A stretch of DNA of 44,350 bases from a virus. The DNA is taken from positions 1 to 44,350 of IMG/VR virus record IMGVR_UViG_3300020281_000042; one strand, 5' to 3'. The notes under the pieces were generated by a model that was not told the DNA's origin, searched no databases, and was given only the letters and a program-made list of their open reading frames with translations. The position numbers were made by a program, and so were the translations under genes. Positions 13,054-32,223 of this stretch are shown here, piece by piece. Numbering within the stretch: position 1 is the stretch's first letter; the number at the start of each line of letters is the position of its first letter.

Positions 13054-13172
13054 ATGTGACGGTTACACCGTCAGCCGCAGCGCCTCATGCGGCATACAAG
13101 TATGCTCAAGGCACGGCGGAGCCACACGCCTAATTGCTCATGGCACACTGCTGCACGGTGCACCGACGCCCT

Positions 13173-13189
13173 GCCCGTTTGAGTCGGGC
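13173..13189 (+). other. T-arm-like hairpin A
   Basis: A 5-bp stem GCCCG/CGGGC encloses a 7-base loop TTTGAGT, one base away from the tRNA T-loop consensus TTCRANY. It lies just upstream of the first early gene. It is grouped with the other 7-base-loop hairpins described in the findings. Confidence 0.4.
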
Positions 13190-13244
13190 TGCTAGCTATT
13201 GCGACAACAAGGTCGCATCTATTGTTCACTTGTTTCATTCATTC

Positions 13245-13490
13245 ATGTTCACCTATTCTGCAACTCGTACCTCTGAGCCTTGCAACTTCGTTCACGTTGA
13301 CCTGCTCAAGGGCGAAGCCATTGTTGACTTCAAGACCAGTGCTTGCTACAAGTACACAAACGTGTCTCGTCGTGCCATCATCAACCTGATGATGCAGCCC
13401 AGCATGAGCCTCGGCTTCTGGGTCAACAAGAACTGTGTGCAGTCAGAGCGTACCAGCTACGCTGTCTGTGCTGACTTGCAGCTTGCCTGA
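13245..13490 (+). CDS. KTSC-domain-like early protein, 81 aa
   Basis: The ATG at 13245 is preferred because the frame upstream to 13134 reads through hairpin-rich non-coding sequence. The protein has an N-terminal strand (CNFVHVDLLKGEAIVDFKTS) and YKYTNVSRRAIINLMMQPSMSLGFWVNKNC, which resembles the KTSC domain pattern Y-x-Y-x-x-V-(S/P) ... S-x-G-x-(F/Y)-(F/V)-N. KTSC domains are small and found in phages and next to lysyl-tRNA synthetase; their role is unknown. It is the first gene of the early cluster. Confidence 0.65.
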   Translation: MFTYSATRTSEPCNFVHVDLLKGEAIVDFKTSACYKYTNVSRRAIINLMMQPSMSLGFWVNKNCVQSERTSYAVCADLQLA

Positions 13491-13519
13491 TAGGCATAGC
13501 TCACGGGATCATAGCCCGC

Positions 13520-13540
13520 TGCCAGGTGCAATGCCTGGCA
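13520..13540 (+). other. T-arm-like hairpin B between early genes
   Basis: A perfect 7-bp stem TGCCAGG/CCTGGCA encloses a 7-base loop TGCAATG. It sits in the 72-base gap between the genes ending at 13490 and starting at 13563. It has no T run, so it is unlikely to be an intrinsic terminator; an RNA processing or stability element is more likely. Confidence 0.6.
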
Positions 13541-13562
13541 TGAGCCTGACACCTAGCGTGTC

Positions 13563-13898
13563 ATGTACACTACACATTCACACATCATGTACAACGTGTC
13601 ACCTATGTACGACGCACTGGCTGAGCGCTTCGATGACATGGACGAGATCAAGGACGTAGCCGAGTATGGCTGCGCTGCTGGTGTCTCCGACTTCATCTAC
13701 TCGACAGAACTTGCGGAGTTCTTTGACAAGTACGAGGACGAGATCGAGTCAGAACTTGATGTTTACGGCCTCAAGTACGAGGACTTGCTAGACACTAGCG
13801 AGTTCTATACAATGCAGGAACTCAAAGAGAAGGCTGTGTGGTGCATCGTTGAGATGTACTGTCATCAGCGTGTCGATGCAGCCTGTGCTGTAGCCTGA
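13563..13898 (+). CDS. Acidic early protein, 111 aa
   Basis: The protein is strongly acidic (FDDMDEIKDVAEYG, then FFDKYEDEIESELDVYG) with a conserved-looking core YGCAAGVSDFIYSTELAEFF. Proteins with a G-C-x-x-G-V-S-x-F-I-Y core are found in cyanophage early regions. A small acidic early protein could mimic DNA and inhibit a host DNA-binding enzyme, as several T7 early proteins do, but that is speculation. The ATG at 13563 starts the frame; internal ATGs at 13587 and 13605 are alternatives. Confidence 0.65.
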   Translation: MYTTHSHIMYNVSPMYDALAERFDDMDEIKDVAEYGCAAGVSDFIYSTELAEFFDKYEDEIESELDVYGLKYEDLLDTSEFYTMQELKEKAVWCIVEMYCHQRVDAACAVA

Positions 13899-13913
13899 TC
13901 CGTTCAAGCGGGT

Positions 13914-13934
13914 GGCAAGGTGCGATCCCTTGCC
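13914..13934 (+). other. T-arm-like hairpin C between early genes
   Basis: A perfect 7-bp stem GGCAAGG/CCTTGCC encloses a 7-base loop TGCGATC. It lies in the 75-base gap between the genes ending at 13898 and starting at 13974, the same kind of position as hairpin B. Both share the core AGGTGC(A/G)AT. Confidence 0.6.
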
Positions 13935-13973
13935 CAGGTATTGCCCACGCACTGAGCGGGGCTACGTAACAAC

Positions 13974-19797: not shown

Positions 19798-21389
19798 GCG
19801 ACTCTGAATTTATCAGGCATATACCTTGCCCGGAGTGTGGATCATCTGATGCAAACAGTATCTACACGGACGGGCACGAGTATTGTCACAAATGTAACTA
19901 TTTCAAACCTGCGGAAGGATCCGCTACAAATCACACTCACCATTCCGTGCAACATGTACGACTACAAGGATCAGCCGGAAGGCTGCACTCCAGGGGGATC
20001 ACAGAGAAAACATGTGAACTCTTCAAAACCTACCGAGACGGAGAACTTCTACGCCACTATTACTTCGATGGCACTGGATCGCCTGTTGGCGCGAAAGTAA
20101 GGACACCGAAGAAGGAGTTTCGCTGCGAGGGTGAGGTCAAAACCCTCTTTGGGATGCAGAACTACCGTCACAAGACGTCTAACAAGACACAAAAGCTTGT
20201 GATTACAGAGGGCGAGATGGACGCTATGTCCGTCTGGGAAGCCCAACCACACTGGGACGTAGTATCCGTGCCAAACGGAGCTGCTGCCGCTAAGAAAGCT
20301 ATTCAAAACAACTACGAATGGCTCCAGTATTACGACAAGATTGTCCTCTTCTTCGATAACGATGAAGCAGGCCACAAAGGCGCTGAGGAAGCTGCCGGTG
20401 TGATGCCACCTGGCAAGGTTTTCATCGGCTTCCTAGACGATTACAAGGATGCCTCAGAGGCTTTACAGGCTGGCGACACCGAAGCAATTCGAGCTGTCTG
20501 TAACTTTCAGCACACTCAATACAAACCAGACGGGATTGTTGATGCCAAGTCGTTAATCGACGTCATCACAACTCCCTCCCCACCATCAGATCATGACTAC
20601 CCCTTTCAAGGACTACAAAACAAGCTTCACGGGATCAGGTACGGAGAGCTTGTCACGATTACTGCGGGATCAGGGATTGGCAAATCGTCCTTCTGTCGCG
20701 ACTTATGTACTCACCTGCTTAACAAAGGAGAACGGGTCGGTTACTTGGCACTTGAAGAGTCAAACCGCCGTACAGCTCTCGGACTTATGTCAGCAGCAGT
20801 CGGACGAAGCCTCCACCTTGGAGAGCATGATCGATCTGAGCTAGTTGAAGCGTTCGATAACACGATCGCGAACTGGAACCTGCATTTGTTTGATGGCTTC
20901 GGGTCTTATGACCCTGACCACATCTACAACCGTATCGAATACATGGCAAGCGGCCTTGAAACCAAGGTTGTTTTCCTCGATCACTTGTCAATCCTGCTAT
21001 CTGGCCTCGACGGTATCAACGACGAGCGCAAGATGATTGACCAGACAATGACAAAACTTAGATCCCTTACTGAGAGGACAGGGATTTCACTATTTCTTGT
21101 ATCTCACTTACGTAGGACTTCTGGCGATGTCAATCACGAGGAAGGAGCCCGCGTCACACTTGGACAGCTTAGAGGATCTGCTTCTATTGCTCAACTCAGC
21201 GACGCATGTATTGCGCTCGAAAGAGATCAGCAGAGTGGACCTGAATCAAGCTCTACGACTGTGCGCGTCCTTAAAAATCGATATTCAGGCGAAGTTGGTG
21301 TCGCCTGTAAGCTGAATTACGACCTATCTACCTGCAAATTCCATGAAACTGCAATCGAAGCCGAGTTTGACGCAACAACTGATTTCTAA
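19794..21389 (+). CDS. Primase-helicase (T7 gp4-like), GTG start
   Basis: This fused enzyme makes primers and unwinds the fork. Numbering from GTG 19794, the zinc site is C12, C15, C31 and C34 (IPCPECGSSD, HEYCHKCN). The TOPRIM primase has TEGEMDA with E139 and FDNDEAG with D188 and D190. The helicase has Walker A GSGIGKSS (292-299) and Walker B VVFLDH. The C-terminus TTDF carries the acidic-plus-Phe tail that contacts polymerase. GTG 19794 gives MSDSEFIRHIPC, matching the T7 start; an ATG at 19755 would add 13 unlikely residues. Length 531, T7 566. Confidence 0.93.
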   Translation: MSDSEFIRHIPCPECGSSDANSIYTDGHEYCHKCNYFKPAEGSATNHTHHSVQHVRLQGSAGRLHSRGITEKTCELFKTYRDGELLRHYYFDGTGSPVGAKVRTPKKEFRCEGEVKTLFGMQNYRHKTSNKTQKLVITEGEMDAMSVWEAQPHWDVVSVPNGAAAAKKAIQNNYEWLQYYDKIVLFFDNDEAGHKGAEEAAGVMPPGKVFIGFLDDYKDASEALQAGDTEAIRAVCNFQHTQYKPDGIVDAKSLIDVITTPSPPSDHDYPFQGLQNKLHGIRYGELVTITAGSGIGKSSFCRDLCTHLLNKGERVGYLALEESNRRTALGLMSAAVGRSLHLGEHDRSELVEAFDNTIANWNLHLFDGFGSYDPDHIYNRIEYMASGLETKVVFLDHLSILLSGLDGINDERKMIDQTMTKLRSLTERTGISLFLVSHLRRTSGDVNHEEGARVTLGQLRGSASIAQLSDACIALERDQQSGPESSSTTVRVLKNRYSGEVGVACKLNYDLSTCKFHETAIEAEFDATTDF

Positions 21390-31742: not shown

Positions 31743-31907
31743 ATGTTTGACATCCGAGTAGATGATGGTGGTGCACGTATTATTCGTGACGCCCTAAGAG
31801 AATACAAACGAACCTGGTCTGGTGGTCATCCACAAGAACAGATTGATATTGAGTTCTTAGAAACACAGTTTACCAAAATGGTACTCGAAGCAACATTGGA
31901 CGCATGA
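31743..31907 (+). CDS. Small conserved protein after psbA, 54 aa
   Basis: The protein reads MFDIRVDDGGARIIRDALREYKRTWSGGHPQEQIDIEFLETQFTKM and continues as a helix. The pattern V-D-x-G-x-A-R-x-I-R-(D/E)-A-L resembles small cyanophage proteins of unknown function. It lies 21 bases after psbA and before a terminator, so it shares its transcript. Confidence 0.6.
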   Translation: MFDIRVDDGGARIIRDALREYKRTWSGGHPQEQIDIEFLETQFTKMVLEATLDA

Positions 31908-31910
31908 TCG

Positions 31911-31940
31911 CCTAAGCATGGAACGGGGCTTAGGTTTATT
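31911..31940 (+). terminator. Intrinsic terminator of the psbA unit
   Basis: CCTAAGC (31911-31917) pairs with GCTTAGG (31928-31934) across a 10-base loop, followed by TTTATT. It lies four bases after the 54-residue gene's stop. This fits a weak to moderate intrinsic terminator. Confidence 0.6.
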
Positions 31941-31952
31941 CCTGTACGAACT

Positions 31953-32069
31953 ATGTCTGACCTCGAAAAGCGTTACATCATCAATGCTTACAACAAAATG
32001 CTCCGTGAGGAGAAAGAGTTGAAGCTTTGCTATCGCGGAACTGCTTACAAAAAAACTGTTCTGAACTGA
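31953..32069 (+). CDS. Small conserved protein before the capsid leader, 38 aa
   Basis: MSDLEKRYIINAYNKMLREEKELKLCYRGTAYKKTVLN is helical; LREEKELKLCYRGTAY is shared by small cyanophage proteins (D-L-E-x-R-Y ... L-R-E-x-K-E-L-x-L-C-Y-R-G). Its stop codon falls inside the tRNA-like structure that follows. The function is unknown. Confidence 0.55.
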   Translation: MSDLEKRYIINAYNKMLREEKELKLCYRGTAYKKTVLN

Positions 32070-32109
32070 TCTGGTGACTCAGGGGGAGGTTCGATTCCTC
32101 CCCTCAGTT
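32064..32109 (+). other. tRNA-acceptor/T-arm-like RNA structure
   Basis: A perfect 7-bp stem GGGGAGG/CCTCCCC (32083-32089 with 32097-32103) holds a 7-base loop TTCGATT, an exact match to the tRNA T-loop consensus. The outer arms AACTGA (32064-32069) and TCAGTT (32104-32109) pair and would stack on it like an acceptor stem, with 13 bases in place of the D and anticodon arms. No CCA follows and no anticodon arm exists, so this is not a functional tRNA gene. It could be an RNA processing signal, a decoy or a relic. Confidence 0.55.
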
Positions 32110-32223
32110 ATTGGCGTTGGCCTTCTACGGAAGATACCCTTCGCCGTCATGACGGTGGGAAAAGACCACAAAAATTTTGATCGATCGAAAAGGTTACATA
32201 TTTAAGTTTATTTATCCATACAA
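32110..32223 (+). promoter_or_regulatory. Capsid gene leader with palindromes, possible late promoter
   Basis: The stretch before the capsid gene contains the 12-base palindrome CCGTCATGACGG (32144-32155), a GATCGATC repeat and an AT-rich segment before the ATG. The octamer ATACCCTT at 32134 also occurs upstream of psbA at 30613, which may reflect a phage polymerase promoter. The capsid gene is normally the most strongly expressed gene, so a promoter here is expected. Confidence 0.35.

Follow-up and report, generated by a model that had tools for sequence, protein, structure and literature searches.

RNase III sites lie between the early genes of bacteriophage T7, and the tRNA-like domain of transfer-messenger RNA (tmRNA) combines an acceptor stem and T-arm with a D-arm of reduced size and lacks the anticodon arm. 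Processing signals that resemble transfer RNA (tRNA) are already known in messenger RNA (mRNA) from mitochondria and from some single cases. In plant mitochondria, tRNA-like folds at mRNA ends (t-elements) are processed by RNase P and RNase Z, which defines the transcript ends, as summarised in PMC11658184 with reference to Forner et al. 2007. Plant RNA viruses carry aminoacylated tRNA-like structures at the 3' ends of their genomes (PMC4810235). Here we describe a family of small RNA elements, predicted to be tRNA-like, at gene junctions of cyanophages. Four of them (A to D) lie in the IMG/VR virus record IMGVR_UViG_3300020281_000042, whose 44,350 bases we call the window and whose relatives are the Autographiviridae cyanophages S-SBP1 (Ashivirus) and S-TIP37 (Igirivirus).

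The elements share with tRNA an acceptor plus T stem of 12 base pairs (bp) that ends in a T-loop and, as judged by covariation of letters, the D-loop/T-loop elbow (18-55, 19-56). They differ from it in having no anticodon arm, and the insert in its place, of 8-24 nucleotides (nt), forms one short hairpin or none. The t-elements, as that summary portrays them, are the nearest known parallel, in that they too place a tRNA-like fold at the end of an mRNA or at a gene junction; the phage elements differ from them in lacking an anticodon arm, in their length of about 47 nt, in often holding a stop codon and in being phage-borne. The design of acceptor and T-arm is likewise that of tmRNA, but neither a CCA nor a tag-peptide reading frame is encoded. 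With the plant-virus structures they have in common a viral mimicry of tRNA within a transcript, here placed inside the polycistronic transcripts of DNA phages. A preliminary description of the window had compared its hairpins to the T7 RNase III sites. This holds only in that both lie between early genes in a T7-like phage, whereas the fold is a three-way junction with a T-loop, and its longest helices, of 5-8 bp and within the junction, offer no extended double-stranded stem of the RNase III type.

That description had listed four hairpins with loops close to the T-loop pattern, and all four are found on the plus strand: A at 13173-13189 (GCCCG-TTTGAGT-CGGGC, 5 bp), B at 13520-13540 (TGCCAGG-TGCAATG-CCTGGCA, 7 bp), C at 13914-13934 (GGCAAGG-TGCGATC-CCTTGCC, 7 bp) and D at 32083-32103 (GGGGAGG-TTCGATT-CCTCCCC, 7 bp). 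Loops of the form TNCRANN on stems of at least 7 bp without G-U pairs occur twice on the plus strand of the window (B and C), never on the minus strand and 0.04 times on average in shuffled sequence; D escapes this count only because an eighth pair, G-U, lengthens its stem. Hairpin A, with its 5 bp, is within chance expectation as a bare hairpin. The hairpins of B, C and D are each one arm, the T-arm, of a larger fold. We rejected the view of free-standing hairpins, as B and C folded with their flanks form a junction of outer stem, side hairpin and T-arm with hardly any unpaired linker. B, C and D are three-way junctions of about 47 nt, and A follows this plan apart from one bulge. When the junction as a whole is used as a descriptor, it matches the window at exactly three places (B, C and D), all on the plus strand, with none on the minus strand and 0.2 per shuffle.

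Element B (13499-13545) consists of an outer stem (13499-13503/13541-13545), a side arm (13504-13519) and the T-arm (13520-13540), and is followed by a second hairpin, TGACAC/GTGTCA, at 13547-13563. Element C (13893-13939) has its outer stem at 13893-13897/13935-13939, its side arm at 13898-13913 and its T-arm at 13914-13934; behind it, at 13940-13962, stand an ATTG tag (A73-U74-U75-G) and a second hairpin, GCCC-A-CGC-ACTGA-GCG-GGGC. Element D (32064-32109), before the major capsid gene, has its outer stem at 32064-32069/32104-32109, an insert with GG at 32070-32082 and the T-arm at 32083-32103, and is followed in the capsid-gene leader by an ATTGG tag and a stem-loop (32110-32145). It is found at the same place in many relatives. 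Element A (13150-13196), in the leader of the first early gene, has an outer stem with one bulged base (13150-13155/13190-13196), a side arm (13156-13172, loop CACCGA at 13161-13166) and a T-arm (13173-13189, loop TTTGAGT), followed by a TTG tag and the second hairpin GCGAC-AACAAG-GTCGC at 13199-13220. Its assignment is by homology only, its insert and T-stem being as in the related locus L104. All of these features lie on the plus strand. A model (R1) built from one size class of 19 elements scores B at 49.9 bits with a near relative of B among its members, C at 69.5 bits with C itself among them, and D, which is absent from it, at 19.0 bits (E-value 0.0025); several D-type elements of other phages score weakly.

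The pairing of the stems is supported by covariation. In a gap-free alignment of the 19 elements, 94.4% of the paired cells are complementary against 74.2% after shuffling, and 12 of the 17 stem pairs show changes on both sides, a signal which disappears once each partner is taken from the neighbouring column. The descriptor that collected these members itself asks for pairing and so biases the set towards it; a swap test free of that selection was therefore added, on 45 non-redundant elements defined by the T-arm and downstream tag alone. The complementary outer stem averages 5.20 with an element's own upstream sequence and 4.35 with that of other loci (standard deviation 0.14; best of 500 swaps 4.76). 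The set holds a few obvious chance matches, which weaken this result rather than strengthen it. RNAalifold, applied to D-type elements aligned with MAFFT, recovered the T-arm only, as the inserts differ in length and put the outer stem out of alignment, and the two other procedures were used instead.

A second layer of covariation links the side loop to the T-loop, which reads U-N-C/U-R-A. The search pattern fixed U54, R57 and A58 and left positions 55, 56, 59 and 60 free. Of the elements whose insert forms a side hairpin, 91 of the 107 with GC at 55-56 have AG at the end of the side loop, as do 2 of the 19 with UC, and all three elements with UU have GA there. The insert contains GG in 30 of 31 elements with U55, the three UU elements included. 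GG lies strictly inside the loop in 18 of 28 UC elements and 1 of 117 GC elements as extracted by a script that takes the wrong loop for some UC inserts. The Fisher values for this switch (3e-10 and 6e-15) are inflated by kinship; the switch recurs, however, in matched backgrounds (L179 versus L123; L136/L171 versus L172/L170; L148/L152 versus L117). The cleanest pair is element A and L104, with the insert CGGTGCACCG(A/G)CGCCCT and the T-loop TT(T/C)GAGT. The two differ only at the would-be positions 19 and 56, which are A19-U56 in A and G19-C56 in L104, and 19-56 is a tertiary pair of the tRNA elbow (PMC4810234). To judge from these letters, the side loop covaries with positions 55/56 in the manner of a tRNA D-loop (GG-UC, AG-GC, GA-UU). 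The T-loop interpretation of the preliminary description is thereby borne out, and more strongly than it was put, by the elbow covariation together with the position at gene junctions; the covariation and the excess over shuffled sequence which it had named as its test are both present.

The elements also keep the acceptor/T length of a tRNA. Among 148 tagged elements, the outer stem and T stem add up to 11 bp in 61, 12 bp in 67 and 13 bp in 20, in a scan that left out 10 bp and allowed longer totals; the acceptor plus T length of tRNA is 12. The total is split as 5+7, 6+6, 7+5 and neighbouring combinations, across which A73 (0.66), U74 (0.85) and U75 (0.83) hold their register from the T-loop when no tag filter is applied; in the 7+6 class the tail register is off by one. 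An encoded CCA occurs in none of the 148 tagged elements. A second hairpin starts at positions 75-79 in 128 of 147, the counts for a control region and for shuffles being 27 and 33. The Syn5 promoter consensus was considered as an origin of the ATTGG tag and rejected, as the two exact Syn5 sites lie elsewhere than the element. That the elements are conserved structured RNAs with a tRNA-type elbow we regard as nearly certain.

The family extends well beyond the window. Across 105 related loci the junction descriptor gives 96 sense matches, 3 antisense and 0-2 in shuffles. A scan that makes no demand on the insert gives 205 sense, 3 antisense and 2 shuffled matches in 275 loci (1.57 Mb); many of these loci overlap or are near-identical contigs, so that the 67 distinct sense elements weigh more than the raw counts. 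With loci added from two pattern scans of IMG/VR DNA, from two model phages and from S-EIV1, the pool comprises 185 distinct elements, which come from cyanopodoviruses (among them P-SSP7, Syn5 and S-TIP37) and from S-EIV1-like cyanophages of about 80 kb; the pattern scans pick elements by sequence and measure spread, not frequency. A tag of the TTG, TTTGG or TGACAC type lies within 14 bases downstream in 148 of the 185 and in the following 14 bases in 3. Elements precede the capsid gene in P-SSP7, Syn5, S-SBP1, S-TIP37, S-CBP3 and S-RIP1, a place at which the records of P-SSP7 and Syn5 are without annotation. Relatives of S-EIV1 carry arrays with one element after each small gene, mostly spaced by 250-300 nt, and S-EIV1 itself has two elements by scan and model. 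The placement of L326 and others in this group is provisional, resting partly on one DNA match (L418) and not made gene by gene. Further candidates are seen in the early region of Syn5 (L396, 2699-2746), before psbA in S45-C4 (L108, 30973-31012) and in the early leader of P-SSP7 (L395, 603 onward).

Neither Rfam nor tRNA gene prediction accounts for the elements. No covariance model of Rfam release 15 matches the window at its gathering score; near A, B and C and in relatives the matches are at chance level, and at D there is one unrelated overlapping match with an E-value of 0.94. ARAGORN predicts neither a tRNA nor a tmRNA gene in the window, and contigs from 84,980 prokaryote species hold no exact copy of the C-type pattern. 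The open-access literature turned up work on host RNase E in P-SSP7 and nothing on these elements. We judge their novelty from Rfam, the annotation of the records and this literature.

The elements are encoded on the transcribed strand and occupy gene junctions, between a stop codon and the next start. The preliminary description had placed them outside coding cores, and for C and D this needs correction, as the stop codon that ends the upstream reading frame lies in the outer stem (TGA at 13896-13898 in C and 32067-32069 in D); in many D-type members and in members of the arrays, too, such a stop codon falls within the element. Upstream of element A, which occupies a leader, no gene ends, and D lies 110-150 nt from the capsid start. 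At homologous junctions the elements are exchanged for other structures. At the gene 2 junctions of other clades a hairpin with a CACU...UYUCUGUAGC internal loop stands instead, and B- and C-type elements trade places. Such hairpins are found at the B/C junctions of L004 (3373-3446 and 3766-3869), L005 (4160-4249), L047, L053 and others; the GUAGC of their 3' strand is able to pair anew with a GCUAC downstream, and they are possibly RNase III-type sites that refold after the cut.

Among the 71 capsid leaders long enough to compare, 33 have the T-loop element by regular expression, including L144 and L145 as full predicted tRNA genes; four further leaders are without the tag, and in three of these (L136, L153 and L179) the scan places an element, the fourth being L181. 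A different hairpin, with a variable stem and a conserved apical sequence of 15 nt (CACCUCARWGUNGGA), lies exactly at the D position in 34 (L122, L126, L128, L139, L150, L161 and others). The two occur together in none of the 71. The predicted genes of L144 (1303-1374) and L145 (210-281), also at the D position, are for tRNA-Leu (anticodon aag) with a short anticodon stem. Just before the former, at 1261-1297, L144 has a match to abiF RNA (Rfam RF03085, 47.8 bits, above gathering).

The surroundings of D hold other features. A reading frame of 38 amino acids (31953-32069, plus strand) with the motif ..CYRGTAY.. has its stop codon inside D, and a similar short peptide precedes the element in P-SSP7. 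Upstream of this frame, at 31881-31934, there is a match to the Glutamine-II riboswitch below threshold (20.6 bits, gathering score 33), in which the 5' CGUUCA strand is missing; intact copies occur in L155, L178, L190, L191 and L139. Downstream, window positions 32110-32190 and the capsid leaders of relatives share a strongly conserved, structured-looking leader (UUGGC...GAUACC...GCCGUC..GACGGUGGGAWARACCACA).

We propose that the elements act as tRNA-like punctuation of the polycistronic phage mRNA and are processed by enzymes of tRNA maturation, a reading to which we give a probability of roughly 0.55. Cleavage as such we infer from fold, elbow, position and tail. The fold would offer the features by which RNase Z, RNase P and the CCA enzyme gauge a tRNA, namely the acceptor/T stack and the elbow, and host RNase Z would most likely cut after position 73. 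In the window such a cut would fall at 13940/13941 in C, 13546/13547 in B, about 32110/32111 in D and 13198/13199 in A, and in P-SSP7 at 20680/20681. This would give the upstream mRNA a tRNA-like 3' end resistant to nucleases, and a protective 5' hairpin would stand at the start of the downstream mRNA. We favour this cut because one on the 5' side would often remove the stop codon and because the conserved A-U-U lies on the 3' side, but RNase Z instead of RNase P as the main cutter is a tentative choice at somewhat under even odds. A downstream U activates the RNase Z of Bacillus subtilis, and a cyanobacterial RNase Z has reportedly been studied in Synechocystis. Both enzymes read the acceptor/T stack from the elbow; RNase Z acts on precursors lacking CCA and grips the elbow (PMC4810234), and RNase P accepts other RNAs that present the stack (PMC4919913). 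The exchange with a full tRNA gene and with other hairpins at homologous junctions is counted in favour of punctuation. Signals for tRNA-handling enzymes, as the preliminary description had suggested among other options, are the best-supported functional class, except that enzymes modifying the T-arm are disfavoured as general readers since U55, the target of TruB, is G in most elements.

Several observations weigh against this proposal. Element B has a C-U-G tail in place of A-U-U, D with its 13 bp is off by one in the tail register, and A is recovered neither by the strict junction scan nor by model R1. The docking of side loop and T-loop is read from letters and not from a solved structure, the counts of elements are not independent, since the phages are related, and the conserved tail and second hairpin could have another function. 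A rival reading is an uncut roadblock, in which the compact fold and the second hairpin block exonucleases and stabilise transcript segments with no cut by a tRNA endonuclease. The compactness of the junction, the second hairpin of most elements and their interchange with plain hairpins of other design would suit it, but it leaves the elbow covariation, the stem length of about 12 bp and the A-U-U register unexplained, and we consider it unlikely. To the same degree we doubt that the main event is a cut by RNase P at the 5' base, which would make the 3' end of the upstream mRNA and leave the fold on the downstream one. This enzyme measures the same stack and elbow and cleaves mimics other than tRNA, and element A in its leader has no gene end to lose; in C, D and many relatives, however, the cut would take away the stop codon, the bases at -1/+1 are atypical for RNase P sites, no 3' CCA is encoded and the conserved letters are on the 3' side.

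Use of the T-loop junction apart from tRNA enzymes, as a binding site of a phage or host protein or as a device for stop-start translational coupling, appears less probable still. The overlap with stop codons and the nearness to the next start would fit, and T-loops are found in many RNAs; but A has no upstream gene, D is 110-150 nt away from the capsid start, and there is no candidate protein. Integrases in S-TIP37, P-SSP7 and Syn5 and the tRNA gene at the D position in L144/L145 might suggest remnants of attachment sites or captured 3' ends of tRNAs. We hold this to be very improbable in view of the several copies per genome, the covarying stems, the missing anticodon arm, the arrays between small genes and the absence of the C-type pattern from prokaryote contigs, a comparison with hosts that covered this type alone. 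Least credible of all are transcription terminators or chance hairpins. Stable GC-rich stems do stand at gene ends, yet, as the preliminary description had correctly observed, no T run follows the stems as it would in an intrinsic terminator, and the shuffle and strand counts exclude chance.

Should the punctuation proposal be correct, stop codon, element and 5' hairpin would work as one cassette. The natural swaps at the elbow (G19-C56 to A19-U56; G18-U55 to A18-G55) are ready-made variants for the question of how tRNA-handling enzymes read it. The family includes the model phages P-SSP7 and Syn5, and exact RNA ends can be predicted for existing infection systems. With a chance that we put just short of even, a group of cyanophages reaching from T7-like phages to the S-EIV1-like ones of about 80 kb uses minimal mimics of tRNA to split its polycistronic mRNA, the mimics recruiting tRNA-maturation enzymes of the host, namely RNase Z and possibly RNase P and the CCA enzyme. 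The recurrence of such mimics at the gene junctions of ocean and lake cyanophages would, if true, constitute a new layer of phage gene expression.
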